In this document: one piece after another, positions 2,909-16,304 of the stretch
Layout of the letters: each line of letters opens with the position of its first letter
Position numbering within the stretch: position 1 is the first letter of the stretch
Assembly: GCA_009908735.1 (NCBI GenBank)
Contig: JAAAOR010000006.1
Span: forward strand, 1 to 18,288
Direction of reading: 5' to 3'
From: Spirochaetota bacterium
Lineage (GTDB): Bacteria > Spirochaetota > Spirochaetia > DSM-27196 > PWMO01
DNA: 18,288 nucleotides
Notes under the pieces: generated by a model
Databases searched by the model: none
Told to the model about the DNA's origin: nothing
Seen by the model: the letters and a program-made list of their open reading frames with translations, nothing else
Position numbers and translations under genes: made by a program

Positions 2909-3310
2909 GTGTTTTTCTGGTTTGGCTTCCCGTTCATGTTCCTCCTCCCGTTTTTTGTTGCGGCGGTTGCGGTGCGTGTGGGAACACAGTTCTTCCGATC
3001 CTGGGATACGCAGCAGCGCCGCTACGTCTCGGGACGGGGGCGGCAGGGCAGCGATATCCTTGCCGATATCTACGGTATGCCGCGAAACGGACGTAGTCCG
3101 GAGGCTCGCGTCTTTCAGCTTGCGAGCAAGCTCGGCGGGCGTCTGAGTGTCTCGGACGTCGTCATCGAGCTCGGGGTCGACGTCAAAGACGCCGAAGAGC
3201 TACTTCAGGGTCTCGTGGACAACGTTCGCGTACGCATGGAGCTCGACGACAACGGGCGGGTAACTTTCGAGTTTCCCGAGATCATCGATCGCTCCGAGCG
3301 AGAGAGCTGA
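2909..3310 (+). CDS. Small N-terminally membrane-anchored protein of unknown function
   Basis: A 133-residue protein I do not recognise. The GTG start at 2909 is fixed by a very strong Shine-Dalgarno (GGGGAGGTGAT, 2893-2903). Residues 2-24 are a single hydrophobic helix rich in Phe (FWFGFPFMFLLPFF). Basic residues follow (RSWDTQQRRYVSGRGR), predicting a cytoplasmic C-terminal part. Residues about 62-125 (ARVFQLASKLGGRLSVSDVV, then ELGVDVKDAEELLQGLVDN, then VRMELDDNGRVTFEFPE) have the helix-helix-helix then beta-hairpin pattern of a winged-helix domain. This could be a membrane-tethered DNA- or protein-binding domain (inference). The last 29 bases overlap the 3' end of glnE on the opposite strand. 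Confidence 0.72.
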   Translation: MFFWFGFPFMFLLPFFVAAVAVRVGTQFFRSWDTQQRRYVSGRGRQGSDILADIYGMPRNGRSPEARVFQLASKLGGRLSVSDVVIELGVDVKDAEELLQGLVDNVRVRMELDDNGRVTFEFPEIIDRSERES

Positions 3311-6300
3311 GTAGCCGTTCGTAGAGACTGTGGGCGCGCTCGAGTGTTTGGGAGAGACGCGGCCAGAAGTCTTCGGTGATGTTTTGTGCCTGCTGCATGC
3401 GTCGGGCAACCACCTCGGTATCCTCGGCATCGAGTTTGAGGCTGTGAACCTGCCGGTCGGCGGCAATCTGCAACACGTGCTCCGCTTTCCGCAAAAACAC
3501 GTAATCCTCCCGTAGATGCCGCGCCGTTGCATCGTCGATGACTCCCCGTTCGGAGAGTGAGTCTATTGCTGCTATGGTATTGCCCTCGAGGCGTGATCTT
3601 TCGTCGTTGCCGGGGTTAACCGAGCTCGACGGCTCGCGCCGGCCGTGCCCGGAGCTCTCGCTGACCTCTGCGCCACCGCGGACCCCGGCACGTTCGCTGT
3701 TCTTGGCGCGCCCGCGGTCCCCACCTCGTTCGCTCTGCGAGGCGTGCGTCGCCCGCGTTGCCACATCGAGCAACTGTAACCCCTGCACCAGAAACTCGAT
3801 GTCGCGGATGCCCCCACGGCCCTCTTTGACGTCCACTACGTTCGGGTCGCTCTCGATCGCGCGCGTCTTCTGCTCGCGCAGTCGACGTATGCCGTCGGTA
3901 ACCGCCTGCGGCTCGACCCGGCGGGGTATGCTCTCGTGGACTGCATCAACAAAGCGGGCGGCAAGGTCGCGGTTTCCCGCTACTGGGCCGAGCTTTATCG
4001 CCGCTTGACGTTCCCATGCGGCTGCCTGCCGGTGGTAGTAGTCGATGGCCGCGGAGACGGGATAGACCAACATGCCGGAGGAGCCGAATGGCCGCAGTCT
4101 GAGGTCGACGCGATAGAGGTAGCCCTGCAGCGTGTGAGAGGTGAGATCCTGATTGAGCCGGGTCATCACCGAGGTGTAGGCGTCTCGCTCCGCCCCGGGA
4201 TCGGCCTGCGCGTCCGGCTCGTAGATGGCGAGCAGATCGATGTCGGAGCTATAGTTGAGCTCGTTGCCGCCGAGTTTCCCGAATCCGAGAATGGCAAATC
4301 GCACGGGGATCACATCCGGGGTTTCGCGCAGTATCCGCTCGAGGCAGGCATCGACGATGGTTCGCGCAAGGTTTGAGAGCTCCGCGGTCACTTCGCGCAG
4401 ACCTACGCCGAGACAGATATCGCGTGTGCCGATCCGTAGTATTTCTCGCCGCCGGAAACGGCGCACCGCGTCGAGCCACTCCTCGTGGGAGTCGCACGCA
4501 TCGCCAATTTCAGCGAGGTCGGCTCCCATCTCCTGCTCACCGCGCAGTCCGCGAATGATCTGGGGCGCGGTGGCCCACGCAAGGAACTCGGGATCGCGGA
4601 AGAGGGCCTGAGAGAGAAAGGTGCTGGTTGCGAGGATGGTCAGCAGTATTTCCAGGCGCTGCGGCTGGCGTTCGAGCTCGCGGAAGTGCGCTTCCGGATC
4701 ATCGAGTGCGCTCACGAGTTGCTCCCAATGGTTGAGGGCGAGATCGGCGTCGGGCACTCGCGTAAACACGTCCCAGGCGAGGATGGCGAGTTCGGCAAAG
4801 AGATAGCGCCTGTTGCCGTCGCCTGCGAGGTTGCGGAGATTGCGTAGGCTCCGCTCCGGATCCCGGAAACCGCCGGAGCTCAGGATGTCGGCCACACGGT
4901 CTTCATCGACATGATCGGAGAGTATGATGTCCGCGACCGTACCAAGGGGTGCCCCAGGCAGAGCATCGCGGCCGAGCTCGCGCTCGACGAAGACCCGGAC
5001 CTGCGCAGTGCGCGTTTCGAACTCAACGTGCAGTTGCTCCGACGGTCCGAGCTCGCCACTACCGGAGTACCCCATGCGCCTGGCAAGATGTTGGTACTCG
5101 AGGGATTCCACCGCTGGGAGAAAGAGGTCCATGGCGTTGCCACGCAGCATCCGCAATCCGTTTATGAGCTTTCGCAGAAAGTGGTAGGCATCCACGAGCC
5201 GGTCCGCCTCGGCGGCGTCGATCTCCCCGGCCGCCACGAGCTCGCTCAGGGCGACGTGGATACGCGGGGTGCGCAGCTTCGGGTTGGTGCGCCCGAGGGT
5301 CACCTGGAGGATCTGAACGCTGTACTCGAGGTCCACAAGGCTGCCGGGTGAAAACTTTGCATTCAACTGTCGCGGCCGGCTCTTGGACTTGAGCTGCACC
5401 GCCCGGAGGCGCTTGAGCTCGGCAAGGTCGATGCTGTCGGCGGCGTAGACAAGATCGTCGCGCAGTCGTTCGACGCGCCGGCCGAACTCCTTTTGACCGG
5501 CGACATGGCGCATGCGAACCAGCGCAAGCTTCTCGAGGCTCGATGCCTCCCCGGAGTAGTAGCGGGCAAATTGGGCGAGGCTCGACGCTTTGGCGCCGGC
5601 CGCGCCGTAGGGACGGAGGCGCAGATCCACCTGAAAGATACCCTCCCGCTTGGCGCGGATGAAGCCCGATATCTCGTTTACGAGATGGGCGAAAAACTCG
5701 GCGTTTCGCACGGGTTCGGCGCCGTCGGTGCTGCCGTCGTCGCTGTAGACGAACATCATCTCGATGTCGGATGCGTATCCGAGCGCCTCCCCGCCTAGTT
5801 TGCCGAGACCCATCACGGCGAGGTTAGCTGCGAGCCCGGCCACGGTGCGCGGTGTGCCGTAGCGCGCCGCGAGAGCATCGAAGCAGATGCGATAAGCGGC
5901 CTCGATGACCGCCTCGGCGAGAGCGGTGAGGCGGGAGCTCAGAAAAAAGAAATCGAGCTCCCCGCGGAGAATGTGGTCAAGGTCGATGAGATAGGTCTCG
6001 TGGTCCTTGAAATCGTTGAGAACCTTCCGTTTCTCTTCGAACCCTTGCGCCTTCTCGAGGGCGGCGTCGAGGAGGCCGGACACCTCCTCGGGCGGGTGGC
6101 TCAGCACCGTGTCGTTGGAGCTCGCGAGGAGGGGCAGAAGCTGCTCATGCTGCATGCGGATGAAGTCCTCCCACAGAAAGTCACTTGCCCCGAGCAGGCG
6201 GGCGAGGTCTTGGAGGATCTTCGGGCTTGAGAGAACGTCGTTCATCCGGTCGCGTTCGGAGAGAGTCAGGAAGTCCTGAATGAGCCGTTCGAATCTGAGC

Positions 6301-7307
6301 AAAGCCTGATAGCGGTCAGGTGCGACGGTGAGAAAGTAGGTGAACTGCTTGGTAAACGCCACCGAGAGTCGAATCTGATTCAGCCGGCGCTCGTCTGTGA
6401 CGGCGCGGCCTGAGGAGTCCACGAAATCGAAGAGGTCCTCCACCTGCTCGCCTCGGGTGTGAATTTCCACCCTCTCCACCGACATTTCATGCAGCACGAG
6501 GGCGCTCGAGAGGGCGTAGAGGAAAAAGGGCGTGTCGACCCCGGTGACGCGCATCCGCGTAGTCGTTTCGCCCGGCTCGACATCAATCCCCACTGGGTAG
6601 AGGGCGCGTTCCTGCCGCACGGGAAAGCGATCCAGTGCCGAGGCAACCTCCTCCGTGATGCGTCGTTTGACCTCACTGTAGCTTTCCTGCGTGCCACGGT
6701 GCAGCAGACCGAGAAACTCTCTTGCCTTTGCGGCTACCTCTTGCGACCAGGTTTCGAACGGGGCGTGCGTGGTCCCGCGAAAGCGGTCCACGATGTAGCG
6801 GGTCGGCGGCTTTGCGGCCGGCGTGGGGAAAGAGCCCGCACGGCGGTACCACGATCGCGCGCCGTGGCCCGACCGACGCCCGCGACCCCCTGCAGCGCCA
6901 CGGGTGGCGCCGGCCGCGCCGTCGTGCGTCCCGCCACCCGCGCGCCCACCCTCCGTGTCGGCGCCCGCGACGGTTCTCGCCTCTGTATATACGTCACCCG
7001 AAGCGATGTCGAATCCGGTTGCCGAGAGTAATCCCGCGAGCACGGAGAACTCTCCGGGAGCATCGTAGGATAAAAAGGTCACCTCGGCGCTGTCGCGCGT
7101 GCGCCGTATGAGTACGCGGACGGGATTCTCCGGCGAGAGGGCGGCGAGGGCGCTGAGATGCGCTTCGATCTCCTCCTGTTGAAAGGTTTCGAAGTAATGC
7201 TGCGGAAACCGCTCGACGTAGCGTCGTATGAGCGCTTCGCCAACTTCCGGGCATCGGGCGGTAAGCTCCGAGACTGTAGGGCGGCGGGACTGAAACTCCT
7301 CCATCAC
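3282..7307 (-). CDS. glnE: GlnE: glutamine synthetase adenylyltransferase/deadenylylase with N-terminal ACT domains
   Basis: A 1341-residue GlnE, about 400 residues longer than the E. coli protein (946). It adenylylates and deadenylylates glutamine synthetase in response to nitrogen status. Two ACT-like domains come first: ACT1 about residues 72-180 (DAPGEFSVLAGLLSATGFDI resembles GlnD 'DRPGLFARIAGVLA'), split by a Gly/Arg-rich insertion at about 112-165, and ACT2 about 248-300 (VDTPFFLYALSSAL). The deadenylylase nucleotidyltransferase motif follows at 500-516 (GLGKLGG with ASDIE), then the adenylyltransferase motif at 1008-1024 (GFGKLGG with SSDID; D1022, D1024). GRGGIRDIEF is intact. Three degenerate 12-residue repeats start at S1192. 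The start is GTG 7307 directly followed by ATG 7304; neither has a Shine-Dalgarno, but TACAAT lies at 7315-7320. It is downstream of amtB-PII, separated by a terminator. Confidence 0.92.
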   Translation of the reverse strand: MMEEFQSRRPTVSELTARCPEVGEALIRRYVERFPQHYFETFQQEEIEAHLSALAALSPENPVRVLIRRTRDSAEVTFLSYDAPGEFSVLAGLLSATGFDIASGDVYTEARTVAGADTEGGRAGGGTHDGAAGATRGAAGGRGRRSGHGARSWYRRAGSFPTPAAKPPTRYIVDRFRGTTHAPFETWSQEVAAKAREFLGLLHRGTQESYSEVKRRITEEVASALDRFPVRQERALYPVGIDVEPGETTTRMRVTGVDTPFFLYALSSALVLHEMSVERVEIHTRGEQVEDLFDFVDSSGRAVTDERRLNQIRLSVAFTKQFTYFLTVAPDRYQALLRFERLIQDFLTLSERDRMNDVLSSPKILQDLARLLGASDFLWEDFIRMQHEQLLPLLASSNDTVLSHPPEEVSGLLDAALEKAQGFEEKRKVLNDFKDHETYLIDLDHILRGELDFFFLSSRLTALAEAVIEAAYRICFDALAARYGTPRTVAGLAANLAVMGLGKLGGEALGYASDIEMMFVYSDDGSTDGAEPVRNAEFFAHLVNEISGFIRAKREGIFQVDLRLRPYGAAGAKASSLAQFARYYSGEASSLEKLALVRMRHVAGQKEFGRRVERLRDDLVYAADSIDLAELKRLRAVQLKSKSRPRQLNAKFSPGSLVDLEYSVQILQVTLGRTNPKLRTPRIHVALSELVAAGEIDAAEADRLVDAYHFLRKLINGLRMLRGNAMDLFLPAVESLEYQHLARRMGYSGSGELGPSEQLHVEFETRTAQVRVFVERELGRDALPGAPLGTVADIILSDHVDEDRVADILSSGGFRDPERSLRNLRNLAGDGNRRYLFAELAILAWDVFTRVPDADLALNHWEQLVSALDDPEAHFRELERQPQRLEILLTILATSTFLSQALFRDPEFLAWATAPQIIRGLRGEQEMGADLAEIGDACDSHEEWLDAVRRFRRREILRIGTRDICLGVGLREVTAELSNLARTIVDACLERILRETPDVIPVRFAILGFGKLGGNELNYSSDIDLLAIYEPDAQADPGAERDAYTSVMTRLNQDLTSHTLQGYLYRVDLRLRPFGSSGMLVYPVSAAIDYYHRQAAAWERQAAIKLGPVAGNRDLAARFVDAVHESIPRRVEPQAVTDGIRRLREQKTRAIESDPNVVDVKEGRGGIRDIEFLVQGLQLLDVATRATHASQSERGGDRGRAKNSERAGVRGGAEVSESSGHGRREPSSSVNPGNDERSRLEGNTIAAIDSLSERGVIDDATARHLREDYVFLRKAEHVLQIAADRQVHSLKLDAEDTEVVARRMQQAQNITEDFWPRLSQTLERAHSLYERLLSSLARSDR
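3627..3734 (-). repeat. Three degenerate 36-bp tandem repeats inside glnE
   Basis: Read on the minus strand, three consecutive 36-base units encode SERGGDRGRAKN, SERAGVRGGAEV and SESSGHGRREPS (residues 1192-1203, 1204-1215, 1216-1227). Each unit begins AGCGA. They sit in the adenylyltransferase half just after GRGGIRDIEFLVQGLQL and before the conserved C-terminal helices, so they form an in-frame insertion, not a truncation. Confidence 0.65.
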
Positions 7308-7425: not shown

Positions 7426-7767
7426 TCAACCGATGGCGTCGTTTCCCTTTTCGCCGCTTCTGATCCGAATCGTCTCTTCGAGCGGTAGGACGAAGATCTT
7501 GCCGTCACCGATCTCCCCGCTTCTCGCTCCCTTTATGACCGCGTCTATTGTTTGCTGAACGAAGCTGTCGTTCACCGCGATCTCGATTCGTACCTTCTTG
7601 AGAAGGTTTACCTCGATATCGACGCCCCGGTAGTGCTCGGTGTAGCCCTTCTGCTGTCCGGCACCCATCGAGTTGGTCACCGACATCTTGTAGACTTCCG
7701 ACTTGTACAGCTCCTCTTTCACGTCATTCAGCTTATGCGGCTGAATATAGGCAATAATCAATTTCAT
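7426..7767 (-). CDS. glnK: PII-family nitrogen regulator lacking Tyr51
   Basis: A 113-residue PII signal protein, the cytoplasmic trimer that senses ATP/ADP and 2-oxoglutarate and binds AmtB, GlnE or other partners. Landmarks: Q39 and K40 in GAGQQKG, the T-loop [16 protein letters not shown] at 43-58, GEIGDGK in the B-loop, and IRIRSGE near the C-terminus. The alignment with E. coli GlnB has no gaps across the T-loop; position 51, the tyrosine uridylylated by GlnD, is isoleucine here, while Tyr46 is kept. Uridylylation at the usual site is therefore impossible. The ATG at 7767 follows AGGAGGTCG. That site overlaps the end of amtB, whose stop lies 15 bases upstream, so the two are co-transcribed and probably coupled. 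The linkage to amtB favours the name GlnK over GlnB, but the subtype is uncertain. Confidence 0.93.
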
Positions 7768-7782
7768 GCTGCTCGACCTCCT

Positions 7783-9159
7783 TTACATCGAAGTGAAGAT
7801 CTGGAATCCACTGTAGGACTCCACGCCGTGCTCGCCGATGTCCAGGCCTTCCAGCTCTTCCTTCTCCGACACGCGGAGGATGCCAAGCGCTTTCAGGATG
7901 CCGAACAGGATGAGCGCAGCAACGACTACGTAGGCGAACACCGCCAGCACGCCGAGAACCTGCACGCCAAGCTGAGCAGCCCCACCGCCGTAGAACAGGC
8001 CCACGATACCGGGGTCGTTGCCGCCGTCCGCGAACAAGCCGACTGCGATAGTGCCCCAGGCACCTGCGGTTCCGTGTACCGACACCGCCCCGACAGGATC
8101 GTCGATATGCAACACCTTGTCGAGGAACTCGACCGAGAGCACTACGATGATACCCGCGAGGAAGCCGATAATGACCGCGCCGACGGGACTCACGACCCAG
8201 GTCCCCGCCGTAATACCCACCAGACCGGCCAAGGCGCCGTTGAGGGACACCGACGGATCGGGTTTGCCGAACCATATCCAAGAGGTGATCATCGCGGCGA
8301 TCGCGCCCATTGAGGCGGCCAGCGTGGTCGTGGTAGCCACGTGTGCAATGGATAGGTCGGTACCGGAGAGAGTGCTTCCGGCGTTGAATCCATACCAGCC
8401 GAACCACAGGATGAACACACCCAGTGCGGCAAGCGGCATGCTATGCCCGGGTATGGCTCTCACGCTCACCTGGCCGTTCACGCGCACGTACTTGCCGCGT
8501 CGTGCACCAAGAAGCGCCGAACCGACCAAGGCCGCCCAGGCTCCGACCGAGTGAACAACCGTGCTACCGGCAAAGTCGTGGAAGCCGAGCTCGGCAAGCC
8601 ATCCGCCACCCCAGACCCAATGACCCGAGATCGGGTAGATGAGACCGGAGATAAAGACGCTGTAGACGAGATAGCCGACGAACTTCGTCCGCTCAGCCAT
8701 GGCGCCCGACACGATCGTGGCGGCTGTGGCGGCAAACACGACCTGGAACATCCAGTCGCGGAAGATCGCCGACATGTCGCTCACGCCGTAAGCGCTCATC
8801 GTCTCCTGCGTGTACGAGAGAAAGAAGCCGTTGCTGCCGATGAACCCTCCGACGCTCGGAGCGCCGTACATGAGCGCCCAACCGATCGCCCAGTAGGCGA
8901 CGGCTCCGGCGGAGAAGTCCATCAGATTCTTCATGATGATGTTGCCGGCATTCTTGGCGCGGGTGAGCCCCGTTTCGACCATCGCGAAGCCCGCCTGCAT
9001 AAAGAACACGAGGGCGGCCGCGAGTATCAGCCAAATCATGTCGAACGCCTGAGAATACAGCGCAAGCATCTCTTCGGTGGACTGATCCTGAGCCACGGCG
9101 CTGCCGCCGCCCAGAAGCAACCCGGCGATAATGAACAGGGTGAACAATCGTGCTTTCAT
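7783..9159 (-). CDS. amtB: AmtB-type ammonium transporter
   Basis: A 458-residue Amt/Mep/Rh family channel that moves ammonium/ammonia into the cell. Residues 1-23 are a cleavable signal peptide (MKARLFTLFIIAGLLLGGGS, then AVAQ), as in E. coli AmtB, followed by about 11 membrane helices. The signature FFMQAGFAMVETGLTRAKN begins near residue 52. Asp195 and His203 (DFAGSTVVH) and His362 (GAVSVHGTAGAWGT) match the selectivity aspartate and the twin-histidine pore. The cytoplasmic tail (EHGVESYSGF) resembles the family's PII-responsive C-terminus. I chose the ATG at 9159 because AAGGAGGGT lies 7 bases before it and the signal peptide starts there. An in-frame ATG at 9237 would put 26 non-hydrophobic residues in front and would lie upstream of the sigma-54 promoter. 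PII follows directly. Confidence 0.96.
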   Translation of the reverse strand: MKARLFTLFIIAGLLLGGGSAVAQDQSTEEMLALYSQAFDMIWLILAAALVFFMQAGFAMVETGLTRAKNAGNIIMKNLMDFSAGAVAYWAIGWALMYGAPSVGGFIGSNGFFLSYTQETMSAYGVSDMSAIFRDWMFQVVFAATAATIVSGAMAERTKFVGYLVYSVFISGLIYPISGHWVWGGGWLAELGFHDFAGSTVVHSVGAWAALVGSALLGARRGKYVRVNGQVSVRAIPGHSMPLAALGVFILWFGWYGFNAGSTLSGTDLSIAHVATTTTLAASMGAIAAMITSWIWFGKPDPSVSLNGALAGLVGITAGTWVVSPVGAVIIGFLAGIIVVLSVEFLDKVLHIDDPVGAVSVHGTAGAWGTIAVGLFADGGNDPGIVGLFYGGGAAQLGVQVLGVLAVFAYVVVAALILFGILKALGILRVSEKEELEGLDIGEHGVESYSGFQIFTSM

Positions 9160-9199: not shown

Positions 9200-9215
9200 T
9201 GCAATTCCAGTGCCA
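9200..9215 (-). promoter_or_regulatory. Sigma-54 (-24/-12) promoter of amtB-PII
   Basis: The minus strand reads TGGCAC-TGGAA-TTGCA from 9215 to 9200, a full match to the sigma-54 core TGGCAC-N5-TTGCA with the invariant GG and GC. The predicted start is near 9189, giving a leader of about 30 bases that carries the AAGGAGGG ribosome site. Transcription from it requires an AAA+ activator of the kind encoded by the next gene upstream. Confidence 0.85.
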
Positions 9216-9326
9216 ACTGGATCGACGGAATTAGCAAACTTATTAACTTACGCTGAGGGAGTACTTTACTTGAAGAAGAGCCTCCGAGGGACCGGCGCTA
9301 CAGCGGCCGCGTCGGATCGAACGATA

Positions 9327-9340
9327 CTACATGCACGTAG
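9327..9340. promoter_or_regulatory. Candidate activator site 1: CTAC-N6-GTAG
   Basis: CTAC-ATGCAC-GTAG, an inverted repeat with only one mismatched pair over 14 bases. Its centre is about 145 bp upstream of the predicted sigma-54 start, a normal distance for an enhancer site. A lone CTAC half-site occurs 29 bases nearer the promoter at 9298-9301. Confidence 0.5.
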
Positions 9341-9356
9341 AAAACGAGAGGATGAG

Positions 9357-9370
9357 CTACGATAATGTAG
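9357..9370. promoter_or_regulatory. Candidate activator site 2: CTAC-N6-GTAG
   Basis: CTAC-GATAAT-GTAG, identical in its outer arms to the site at 9327 and displaced by exactly 30 bp, close to three helical turns, so the two sites face the same side of the DNA. It lies 17 bases past the activator's stop codon and about 175 bp upstream of the predicted start. Confidence 0.5.
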
Positions 9371-9386: not shown

Positions 9387-10940
9387 CTATGACCTTGTGC
9401 GATACTTTCGCGGATCGATGCCGTACTTCTGTACCCGAAGTCCCATGATCCGTTCGGTTATCTGCAGAAGCTGTGCCGCCCTCGCCATGTTGCCTTTTGC
9501 TGACTTCAACGCGTCGATGACAAGCTCACGCTCGAGGTTCTCAAGCTGTGCCTGCAGGGACCCCGAGGCCGCCGTGCCCGTAGACTCGGCGGACTGCAGC
9601 GTCGGCGGGAGATGGTGGCTGTGGACTACCCCGTCGATGCTCAGCACCGCCGCCCGCTCGATGACGTTCTCCAGCTCCCGTACATTCCCCGGCCAGTGGT
9701 AGCTCGACAACAGGTCGATGGCCGGCGTTGAGATGCGCTGAATGTCCTTGTGGTTCTTCTCCGCGTACTTTTCCACGAAGTGGTCGGCAAGCAGCAGGAT
9801 GTCGCTCTTGCGATCCCGCAGCGGCGGCATGTGGATCGGAAACACGTTGAGCCGATAGTAGAGGTCCTCTCGAAACTCGTTCCGCTCCATCGCCTCTTCG
9901 AGGTTTCGGTTGGTGGCCGTGATTATGCGAACGTTGGTGCGGAGGGTTTCGTTCCCTCCCACACGCTCGAACTGCCGCTCCTGGAGCACCCGCAGCAACT
10001 TGACCTGGGTCAAAGGCGCGAGGTCGCCAATCTCATCGAGAAAAATGGTGCCGCCATGGGCCAGCTCGAATCGACCCTTGCGCATGCTGATGGCTCCGGT
10101 GAAGGAGCCTTTTTCGTGGCCGAAGAGCTCGCTCTCTATCACGGTCTCCGGAAGAGCGGCGCAGTGCACTTTTATAAAAGGCTTTTCGGCTCGGTCGGAA
10201 TTATAGTGAATGGCGTGAGCAACGAGCTCCTTGCCCGTGCCACTTTCCCCGCGTATCAGCACCGTAGCCTCGCTTTTTGCCACCTGCGCGATCATATCGA
10301 AAACTTCCTGCATGGCCTGGGAATTTCCGATGATGTTCTGCGGTCGGAAGCGCGCGCGCAGCTCGTTCTGAAGGCGAGTGTTTTCCTCGACAAGCTGTCG
10401 TTTCTCCTCGAGGATGTTCTGCCGCAGCTTCACCGCCTGTGAGATGAGCGAGGTGACGATGGCCAACAGCCGGGTAGAGCTCTCGAGCTCGCGTTCCTCC
10501 GCGGGCTCGCAATCCACGCTCAGCGCACCGATGGTTTCGTTTCCGAGCTTGATCGGTACGCAAATAAAGGAGAGATCGTCGGACTCTTTGCGGACCCCTG
10601 TGCGATTGAGAAATAGCGGGTCCTCGTTTATGCGTGGTATCACCCGTGGCTCGCCGGTCTGCACCACTTTTCCGGTAATGCCTTCTCCGAGCTGATAGCG
10701 CCCGCGGGCCTGCTCGGTCGAGGAGTAGCCGTAGGCCGCCTCGATGGAAAGCTCGCCTGTCTTGCGGTCGAGCAGCGTGATGGCCGCATGGCGCATACCG
10801 AGACGGTCTGCGAGCGTCTGTAGCACCGGGTATATCACCCGGTCGAGTTCCATACTCTGGTCGAGGAGCTGGCTTATCTCGAAGAGAAGCGAAAGCTCTT
10901 CGACCTTCCCGTGATATGAGACGGTAGAATGTTCGGTCAT
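9387..10940 (-). CDS. nifA: NifA-like sigma-54-dependent transcriptional activator (GAF-AAA+-HTH)
   Basis: A 517-residue enhancer-binding protein. An N-terminal GAF domain covers about 15-170 and has the NifA-type stretch [19 protein letters not shown] and SFICVPI. A coiled linker covers about 170-195. The AAA+ domain has Walker A GESGTGKE (231-238), the sigma-54 contact loop GSFTGA (278-283; Ser replaces the usual Ala, a tolerated variant), Walker B TIFLDE (298-303) and WPGNVREL. A Fis-type helix-turn-helix lies at 485-507 ([20 protein letters not shown]). The cysteine cluster of rhizobial oxygen-sensitive NifA proteins is absent. The start ATG 10940 follows GGAG with a 7-base gap. It sits 25 bases after pyruvate kinase, so the two are probably one operon. 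No nif structural genes are in view, so its targets could be general nitrogen genes such as amtB. NifA subfamily assignment is moderately sure; the class of activator is certain. Confidence 0.88.
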
Positions 10941-14135: not shown

Positions 14136-14702
14136 ATGGCTGAAGAAACACCAAAAAACGAAGAAACACGAACTGAGAATACCGGCGGCACATCTTCCGA
14201 ACAGAGCGGCGCGCGCGAATCGAGCGCGCCACGCAGCAGCGAGGGCAGCGTCGGCGATAGCCGGAGCTCCGACAGTCGCAGTCCCGACCGCGGCAGTCCA
14301 GCTCGCAGCGGTGACAGCCGAAGCACCGACGGTGGTTCGCGCCCCACGGGCGGTTCGAGTCGACCCTCGGGCCCTCCAAGTCGACCTGGTGGTCCGAGCC
14401 GTCCAGGAGATCGTGGAGGCGATCGCGGTGGGGACCGGGGCCGCAGTGGCGGCGGCGACCGTGGTGGTCGCGGCGGTGGATATCGCGGTCGCGGAAAGGT
14501 CTTCTTTCGACGCAAAGTCGACAAGATTAAGACCCAGAACCTGACGATCGACTACAAGCGTCCGGAGATACTGCGTCGATTCGTGACGGACAGTGGCAAA
14601 ATTCTGCCACGTCGAATTACCGGCACGTCCGCAAAGAATCAGCGCCGGCTCATCCGTGAGATAAAGCGGGCGCGGTATCTGGCCCTGTTACCGATGGGGT
14701 GA
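14136..14702 (+). CDS. rpsR: 30S ribosomal protein S18 with long Arg/Gly/Ser-rich N-terminal extension
   Basis: The C-terminal 68 residues (about 121-188) are a normal S18: [40 protein letters not shown] and the [11 protein letters not shown] block that binds 16S RNA and S6. In front lie 120 extra residues of low complexity. There is an acidic Thr/Glu start, then Ser/Arg/Asp repeats ([20 protein letters not shown]), then Pro/Gly/Ser, then RGG-like repeats ([20 protein letters not shown]). The extension is longer than the domain. The start ATG 14136 is firm because AGGAGG lies just upstream and the frame is the same throughout. The stop overlaps the start of the next gene (TGATG at 14700-14704). 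Confidence 0.95.
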
Positions 14703-15665: not shown

Positions 15666-16304
15666 ATGAAAGTCATTTTGAATAACGATGTGGGCAATCT
15701 CGGGGAAGAGGGAGACGTAAAGGACGTGGCCGACGGCTATGCACGAAACTTCCTGATCCCCAAGGGGATGGTCATGCCGTACTCTCGACAGAATCTGGCA
15801 CTCATCGAGAGCCGGCGCGCGACCATAGAAAAGCGCAAGGAAGACAAACGGGAGCAGGCCAAGACCGCGAAGGACCGCCTCGAGGGCGAACCGCTGACGA
15901 TACGGATGACCGCGGGCGAGCGGGGCAAGCTCTTTGGCTCTGTCACGAGCCAGGCAATAGCCGAGGAGCTCGAGAAGCGTGGGATCGATGTGGAGCGAAA
16001 GAGGATCGACATCGAAGACGGCACGATTAAAACACTCGGAACTCACACTGTGCGCGTGCGCCTTTACGCCGAAGAGGAAGCACAACTGAAAGTCGTGGTG
16101 GAGCCCGACGAAAAGAGCGCGGCTCGTCAGAAATCAGCGCCGGCCGAAGAGACGACGGCCGAAGAGACGCCGGACGAAGAGGCCGAGCAAGCCCCGGCCG
16201 CGGATGCCCCGACCGAAGATGCCGCGGCTGGGCAAGCCGAGGAGGCGCCGGCCGAGGAACCCGCAACTGCAGAGGTGGCCGCTGAAGAGGAAGAGCGGGA
16301 GTAA
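15666..16304 (+). CDS. rplI: 50S ribosomal protein L9 with acidic C-terminal extension
   Basis: Residues 1 to about 148 are a complete L9: MKVILNNDVGNLGEEGDVKD, then VADGYARNFLIPKGMV, the N-terminal 23S RNA-binding domain; a charged connecting helix (about 40-75); and the C-terminal domain ending THTVRVRLYAEEEAQLKVVV. A further tail of about 62 residues is almost only Ala, Glu, Pro, Thr and Asp (repeats such as AEETTAEETPDEEAEQA). It is strongly acidic and probably unstructured. L9 is normally about 150 residues. ATG 15666 follows AAAGGAG, which spans the stop of the preceding gene. Confidence 0.96.
   Translation: MKVILNNDVGNLGEEGDVKDVADGYARNFLIPKGMVMPYSRQNLALIESRRATIEKRKEDKREQAKTAKDRLEGEPLTIRMTAGERGKLFGSVTSQAIAEELEKRGIDVERKRIDIEDGTIKTLGTHTVRVRLYAEEEAQLKVVVEPDEKSAARQKSAPAEETTAEETPDEEAEQAPAADAPTEDAAAGQAEEAPAEEPATAEVAAEEEERE

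Follow-up and report, generated by a model that had tools for sequence, protein, structure and literature searches.

Genes and candidate control elements of the window

The window, by which we mean the whole 18,288-nt stretch of DNA that was analysed, carries on its minus strand the genes for pyruvate kinase, an activator with a sigma-54 AAA+ domain, the ammonium transporter AmtB, a P-II nitrogen sensor and GlnE (Table 1). The start of amtB was taken as the ATG at 9159, and an AAGGAGG lies just upstream of it. The glnE gene begins 118 bp past the P-II gene on the same strand and is presumably co-transcribed with it; the activator gene lies 25 bp after the pyruvate kinase gene and may share its transcript. 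By Pfam annotation of the window's gene content, no nitrogenase gene adjoins the activator.

Table 1. Positions of the genes and of the candidate control elements at the amtB locus of the window
Feature	Position	Strand	Remark
Sigma-54 promoter TGGCAC-N5-TTGC(A) of the amtB-glnB operon, TGGCACTGGAATTGC	9201..9215	minus	Sole exact match in the window
Candidate proximal operator CTACATGCACGTAG (minus strand CTACGTGCATGTAG)	9327..9340		Near edge 111 bp upstream of the -24 element
Candidate distal operator CTACGATAATGTAG (minus strand CTACATTATCGTAG)	9357..9370		Near edge 141 bp upstream of the -24 element
Activator with GAF, sigma-54 AAA+ and Fis-type HTH domains, 517 aa, auto-annotated NifA	9387..10940	minus	Pfam, TIGR01817
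amtB, ammonium transporter, first gene of the operon predicted to be controlled	7783..9159	minus	PF00909; TIGR00836 over cut-off
P-II nitrogen sensor (glnB/glnK), directly downstream of amtB	7426..7767	minus	PF00543
glnE, glutamine synthetase adenylyltransferase	3282..7307	minus	PF03710, PF08335

Outside the control region, the GlnE frame (1341 aa) contains two low-complexity Gly/Arg/Ser-rich stretches. The S18 frame at 14136-14702 encodes 188 aa, with the S18 domain confined to residues 135-185 behind a long Ser/Arg/Gly-rich N-terminal extension, and in the L9 frame at 15666-16304 the Pfam domains L9_N (1-45) and L9_C (63-146) are followed by an acidic Ala/Glu-rich tail of about 65 residues.

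An earlier note on this DNA had placed a consensus sigma-54 promoter before the amtB-PII operon, and an exact-match scan confirmed this element as the only one in the window. Matches with up to two mismatches numbered 7 against 14.5 expected, and because such matches fall below expectation only the exact one was considered meaningful. The two CTAC-N6-GTAG palindromes that the note had described at 9327 and 9357 are likewise present, exact and 30 bp apart. They are the sole copies in the window, for which the shuffle mean was 0.10, and two or more copies arose in only 1 of 200 shuffles. The view that the pair is unlikely to be accidental is upheld both by these shuffles and by conservation of the palindrome in relatives, but the accompanying estimate of one motif per 65 kb by chance ignores base composition, and the shuffles point to roughly one per 180 kb. 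Distances of about 145 and 175 bp to the promoter had also been given; these agree with the sequence when the centre of each site is measured from the inferred transcription start; the near edges lie at the distances from -24 that Table 1 lists.

A CTAC half-site at 9298 had been listed with the pair. The letters are there, but the half-site is non-palindromic, and since at most 2 of the 19 CTAC pairs found across Spirochaetia (see below) have a half-site 29-30 bp beyond the proximal site, it is probably a chance occurrence and was rejected as a third element.

Conservation beside orthologous activator genes

The genome-wide evidence comes from the genomes of relatives, and further targets in the window's own genome are predicted from them. 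An ortholog set was formed from the window and those of loci L081-L178 with an activator match above 590 bits. Removal of four loci with near-identical flanks reduced these 84 loci to 80; weaker matches, such as the Treponema loci L085-L089, are left out, and one of the loci, L083, derives from a genome recorded as Verrucomicrobia. An unbiased scan covered every four-base arm with spacers of 0-12 bases, or 3328 combinations, both upstream of the activator gene and in the region after it, which was taken up to amtB or over 450 bp. TACA-N4-TGTA ranked first (43 of 80 loci upstream, 25 after) and CTAC-N6-GTAG second (36 upstream, 21 after), while the mean combination was found in 0.39 loci upstream and 0.60 after. 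Other high-ranking combinations (ACAT-N2, CCTA-N8) are register-shifted versions of the same palindrome.

Among the 832 combinations with three-base arms, TAC-N6-GTA ranked first upstream (60/80) and second after the gene (46/80), where it was outranked by GCA-N7-TGC, a pattern that fits the sigma-54 promoter itself. The classical NifA site TGT-N10-ACA ranked 32nd upstream (13/80) and 381st after the gene (6/80), in agreement with the earlier statement that the palindrome differs from it.

When up to one mismatch was allowed, CTAC/GTAG was present upstream of the activator gene in 64 of the 80 loci, compared with 3.6 in dinucleotide shuffles, and after the gene in 47, compared with 5.4. The sites counted number 140. 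No site with up to one mismatch was detected in 16 of the 80 upstream regions or in 33 of the 80 after-gene regions, 29 of the latter belonging to loci without amtB directly downstream. The amtB gene follows the activator directly in 40 loci, and 36 of these have a site and 31 a sigma-54-like promoter; the arms are thus conserved near orthologous amtB genes, which the earlier note had proposed as a test.

The consensus approximates atCCTACA-wwww-TGTAGGat, with an almost unvarying TAC/GTA core and 80% conservation of the outer C/G, the sites having been selected on those arms. TACN6GTA pairs 12-120 bp apart occur 36 times in the 80 loci; 18 of them are spaced by exactly 30 bp and one by 31 bp. 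The geometry of the window (141 and 111 bp from -24) resembles that of many other loci in the set. Among 37 downstream sites, 8 have a TTG located 22 bp ahead of the palindrome.

Sites before the activator's own gene

Sigma-54-like promoters were found in 1 of 80 upstream regions versus 42 of 80 downstream regions. The own-gene sites lie a median of 14.5 nt before the start codon, as picked by script, and in 47 of 70 a TTG is positioned exactly 12 bp before the palindrome, the next commonest offset having a count of 4. In 38 of 80 loci this TTG is followed, after a 17-bp spacer, by a hexamer with at least four of the six TATAAT bases that begins at the TAG of the right arm, an arrangement seen at 0 of 37 downstream sites. 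The operator would therefore sit between the -35 and -10 elements of a sigma-70-like promoter, a placement that we read as autorepression, and this anatomy suggests that the activator represses its own gene in many relatives. The own-gene operator is absent from the window.

Spacing of the paired sites and the predicted regulon

Pairs of CTAC-N6-GTAG with 10-24 bp between them, which permits start-to-start distances of 24-38 bp, were sought in 198 Spirochaetia genomes. The scan returned 19 places in 15 genomes, and the reversed control returned one place. Control pairs with CATC arms were equally numerous (19 places in 13 genomes), so the count was rejected as evidence by itself, and the weight rests on the confined spacing, the promoter association and the target genes. 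Start-to-start distances of the CTAC pairs were 29-33 bp in 19 of 19 cases, 13 of them 30 or 31 bp, whereas the CATC pairs were scattered over 24-36 bp with only 5 of 19 inside the 29-33 bp range. This confinement corresponds to about three helical turns. Loci were returned for 15 of the 19 CTAC-pair places; TGGCAY-N5-TTGC lies nearby in 12 of these, and the neighbouring frame is glnN in 7, gltB in 6 and glnA in 1, or 14 of 15, as read by eye with one reference per type confirmed by Pfam.

A promoter scan, which overlaps the pair scan and is not independent of it, searched 198 Spirochaetia genomes for CTAC-N6-GTAG located 50-110 bp upstream of TGGCAY-N5-TTGC. There were 44 such places in 40 of the 198 genomes and none for the reversed pattern (0/198), so that the enrichment upstream of sigma-54 promoters, the other test proposed beforehand, was observed. 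Two promoters appear twice, leaving 42 distinct ones. Target genes were assigned as the longest frame starting within 700 nt, identified by blastp to one reference per kind and, for Amt, by Pfam, with the G184 and G144 promoters included. The 42 promoters precede glutamine synthetase III (14), the glutamate synthase large subunit gltB (8), glutamine synthetase I (6), amtB (4) and other genes (10); that is, 32 of 42 precede genes for glutamine synthetase, glutamate synthase or an ammonium transporter.

By Pfam, the ten other targets include parts of ABC transport systems (L211, L219, L226, L232, L243), a molybdate-type binding protein (L242), an HMGL-like enzyme (L210), AspRS (L236), an LptD_N protein (L239) and one protein without a family (L241). 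The AspRS and LptD_N targets have no obvious link to nitrogen. In L242 and L180 (G034, contig C33), a gene for a molybdate-type ABC binding protein with CTAC-N6-GTAG and a sigma-54 promoter is found near a nif cluster, a hint that nitrogen control may extend to the uptake of molybdenum.

In the 147 genomes common to the promoter scan and the activator search, promoter sites were carried by 22 of 85 genomes with the activator versus 2 of 62 without it (Fisher p = 1.8e-4), the latter two having sites but no activator match at E <= 1e-140.

Family of the activator

Close relatives of the activator are found in spirochaetes, among them Spirochaeta cellobiosiphila and Salinispira pacifica, with matches in 85 of 148 Spirochaetia genomes at E <= 1e-140. 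The protein exceeds the cut-off of the NCBIfam NifA model TIGR01817 (564.1 bits against 528.85), to which extent its description as NifA-like was justified, and its nearest PDB chain is 9qq6, a Nif-specific regulatory protein. The alignment to TIGR01817 reaches only profile position 449 of 534 and stops short of the HTH; because the cut-off is passed without the HTH being aligned, the name "nif-specific" is not evidence of nitrogen fixation. The NCBIfam ntrC model scored 347.3, below its cut-off of 558.6, and the activator has a GAF domain. Of the 85 genomes with the activator, just 17 gave a nifD match, 16 of them above the family cut-off, and the other 68 gave none, although drafts may miss genes. 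We therefore conclude that "NifA" is a functional misnomer for this activator, and the nif-specific part of the earlier description does not hold, also in view of the recognition helix.

Among the 80 orthologs, 78 of 79 readable rows have a G-L-R recognition helix, the exception being L083. In AnfA the helix is TRRMLGVRMEKYGI, with G-V-R in 3 of 3 proteins, and in the VnfA-like protein it is TRRMLGLRMEKYAI, with G-L-R in 1 of 1. Second spirochaete paralogues mostly have TNRMxGIRxxKY (7 of 11), and the NifA of 9qq6 has TPRQIAYRIQ. The predicted recognition helix of the window thus resembles the AnfA/VnfA kind; in our reading, a G-[LV]-R helix defines the AnfA/VnfA family. The three AnfA proteins and the one VnfA-like protein were named by position, AnfA being encoded upstream of a nifH-like gene and anfD and the VnfA-like protein upstream of vnf-type genes. 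An anfD gene over cut-off was found in none of five genomes and in 3 of 297 in an order-wide search. An exact TAC-N6-GTA is present in one of three anfA-anfH gaps, and GTAC-N6-GTAC occurs 37 bp after the VnfA-like gene L276.

A tree of 83 proteins was built in which alternate rows of the 80-member ortholog set were included. Ten of the 83, including those of proteobacterial NifA type, which owe that name to their helix and to resemblance, separate from the remaining 73 (100/99). One branch (99/92) unites AnfA and VnfA with an Acidobacteriota row and with second spirochaete paralogues, 10 of the 11 being placed there. The nitrogen-regulator rows fall outside this branch and form a weakly united group of their own (62/97).

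A second activator match was detected in 14 genomes, 13 of which have nifD. The nifH gene follows this second paralogue in at least five loci; in L179 Pfam confirmed it and also identified a nitrogenase component 1 gene farther along. The order of second NifA-like paralogue and then nifH, with P-II-like frames between, is seen in L179 and L180 and also in L181 and L092. In L179 and L180 the nifH gene is preceded by TAC-N6-GTA pairs with a spacing of 39 bp in place of 30-31 bp.

Occurrence outside spirochaetes

In the unbiased scan of 31 non-spirochaete loci, the TAC-N6-GTA repeat did not rank high beside the activator. Before sigma-54 promoters, TAC-N6-GTA was listed at 15 places in 9 of 24 non-spirochaete genomes, some promoters being shared, against 2 for the reversed control. 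In the genome of L018 (Victivallis), divergent genes for glutamine synthetase III and glutamate synthase lie behind sites, as do Amt genes in the genomes of L066 and L006 and a GlnD gene in that of L006. Inspection by eye linked none of the other matches (e.g. L254, L258, L261, L263) to nitrogen, and these may have arisen by chance; no Pfam family was matched for L282. In the L067 genome (Salidesulfovibrio), a TAC-N6-GTA cluster at L278 (G233, contig C9) is common to the sigma-54 promoters of two divergent genes, nifH and one that is HMGL-like. The genomes of L006 and L018 have TACA-N4-TGTA sites and another helix, and only one of three anf gaps has the site; taken together, these observations indicate that helix and site do not correspond one-to-one.

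Discussion

We consider it very probable that the two palindromes are enhancer sites of the adjacent activator, which would act as a general nitrogen switch for amtB and the P-II gene and would be autorepressed in relatives. Conservation, spacing, promoter association, target genes and activator co-occurrence were read directly from sequence. From these we infer that the adjacent protein is the binder, what sign its autoregulation has, and that P-II acts on the GAF domain to signal nitrogen status.

In the mechanism that we propose, HTH dimers of the activator would bind the TAC-N6-GTA core, in spirochaetes in the form of the consensus atCCTACA-wwww-TGTAGGat, with two dimers, separated by about three helical turns, on the same face of the double helix. 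The AAA+ ring could then loop to RNA polymerase-sigma-54 at TGGCAC-N5-TTGC, and amtB, the P-II gene and perhaps also glnE would be switched on. Across Spirochaetia the same element marks the genes for glutamine synthetase III and I, glutamate synthase, Amt and some ABC transporters. Bound between the -35 and -10 elements of its own sigma-70-like promoter, the protein would block that promoter, making it an activator at sigma-54 promoters and a repressor of itself. P-II would convey nitrogen status through the GAF domain, and the position of its gene within the operon suggests feedback.

It is improbable, in our estimation, that the palindromes are real sites bound by a different enhancer-binding protein, either of NtrC type or the second, nif-linked paralogue. 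The similar helix of the latter in some spirochaetes, the TAC-N6-GTA pairs before nifH in L179 and L180, the two genomes that have sites without an activator match and the similar sites in some bacteria with a different helix are what such a binder would explain. Nevertheless, 64 of 80 loci have a site immediately ahead of the activator gene, and sites track the presence of the activator (22/85 versus 2/62). Furthermore, 13 of 14 genomes with the second match have nifD, whereas 68 of 85 activator carriers gave no nifD match.

The inverted repeats begin about 20 and 50 nt after the activator coding region and so might be RNA hairpins serving as terminators of that gene or as a leader element. 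The two sites could pair as RNA (-14.9 kcal/mol over 60 nt), and slightly more T follows the sites than in background (3.15 versus 2.27 of 8). However, a hairpin formed by one site alone is weak (-1.7 to -2.4 kcal/mol), the spacing of the pairs stays within 29-33 bp, and the same sites occur upstream of the sigma-54 promoters of other genes and within the activator's own promoter in relatives; we rejected this reading as highly unlikely. Least credible of all is a chance origin near an ordinary sigma-54 promoter. Only two sites are at hand in one window, and CATC control pairs are as numerous genome-wide, but conservation rules chance out, and the shuffles, the unbiased ranking, the reversed control, the target genes and the own-promoter geometry all speak against it.

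Beyond the activator and its two candidate enhancer sites, we tentatively envisage a broader picture that has somewhat less than an even chance of being right. Spirochaetes and, with a looser site, some Desulfovibrio-type bacteria, Myxococcota and Lentisphaerota would run a general nitrogen-assimilation switch on the TAC-N6-GTA code familiar from activators of alternative nitrogenases, the nitrogenase-specific AnfA and VnfA may be offshoots of this switch and not its source, and many proteins labelled nif-specific NifA would be mis-named. With the same reserve, this picture has a single protein acting as a sigma-54 activator at paired sites and as the repressor of its own sigma-70-type promoter at a single site. 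Overall, the analysis offers testable predictions of an operator, its target genes and a regulatory circuit in a phylum whose control of nitrogen has been little described. A curated equivalog model labels what appears to be a general nitrogen regulator "nif-specific" in genomes without a nitrogenase match, which can mislead searches for nitrogen fixers. The common TAC-N6-GTA core also ties ammonium assimilation to the control of alternative nitrogenases, and the origin of AnfA and VnfA becomes testable.

Comparison with known systems

The activator shares with classical NifA its domain order of GAF, AAA+ and HTH, a TIGR01817 score over cut-off and the nearest PDB chain. It differs in its helix, in its separate branch of the tree (100/99) and in its site and targets, which for NifA are TGT-N10-ACA, described with a 10-12 bp spacer in a passage of PMC6615313, and nif genes; nifD accompanies it in 17 of 85 genomes only, and grouping with NifA was not observed.

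For AnfA of Rhodobacter capsulatus, passages of PMC7294313 report an experimentally defined consensus, TAC-N6-GTA, and place two such sites, together with an RpoN promoter, in the interval from anfA to anfH. Our locus has the same core and a like arrangement, the activator gene being separated from its predicted target by two sites and an RpoN promoter. In contrast, AnfA controls nitrogenase, while the predicted targets here are Amt/P-II, glutamine synthetase and glutamate synthase, mostly in genomes without a nifD match, and the element has additional conserved outer C/G and inner A/T positions and a predicted site at the activator's own promoter. VnfA of Azotobacter vinelandii recognizes GTAC-N6-GTAC or GT(T/A)C-N6-GTAC according to passages of PMC9542535 and PMC7294313, and most of its promoters are described as having two motifs with similar spacing (PMC9542535). 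The TAC-N6-GTA core and the similarly spaced pairs are thus common to both systems, although the outer bases are G..C there and C..G here, and VnfA targets V-nitrogenase and related genes. In summary, the core operator, often paired upstream of a sigma-54 promoter, and the G-[LV]-R helix are those of the AnfA/VnfA type, whereas membership of that clade and activation of an alternative nitrogenase are lacking here.

The palindrome had been proposed to be an undescribed recognition sequence. This is too broad, since its core is published for AnfA and lies inside the VnfA consensus, but we did not meet the extended CTACA-N4-TGTAG form or its use for ammonium assimilation in spirochaetes in print. 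Searches of the open-access literature for CTAC-N6-GTAG, CTACN6GTAG, CTACANNNNTGTAG, CTACA-N4-TGTAG and CTACNNNNNNGTAG gave no match, which is weak evidence of absence, and the passages of PMC13067680 and PMC6615313 that were consulted make no mention of this element.

Other nitrogen regulators are comparable by description. DVU1949 of Desulfovibrio vulgaris, from another phylum, is presented in part of PMC4641369 as a one-component enhancer-binding protein predicted over 9 operons labelled nitrogen metabolism and transport, and is proposed there to be autoregulated; the likeness lies in this one-component nitrogen regulon, motif and orthology aside. In Leptospira, the GAF-type activator EbpA and sigma-54 are reported to control amtB and to matter under nitrogen limitation (passages of PMC12655853 and PMC5243855). 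EbpA is described as FhlA-like with two GAF domains, and the passages give it no enhancer motif, one of them describing binding to a 50-bp oligonucleotide of the -24/-12 region itself; here too the comparison is of descriptions, orthology aside. In R. palustris, P-II was reported to control AnfA, and an AnfA-GlnK1 complex was hypothesised, in the portion of PMC12093980 consulted. A sigma-54 promoter survey from 2025 describes glutamine synthetase as primarily sigma-54-regulated in Pseudomonadota and nitrogen enrichment as reduced in Spirochaetia, in the part available to us (PMC12316311).

The targets in relatives (glutamine synthetase, glutamate synthase, Amt) and the own-promoter anatomy fit an NtrC-like role. 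Taken together, the activator appears to function as a general nitrogen regulator of the NtrC kind that apparently reads an AnfA/VnfA-type site, and it is a proper member of neither family.
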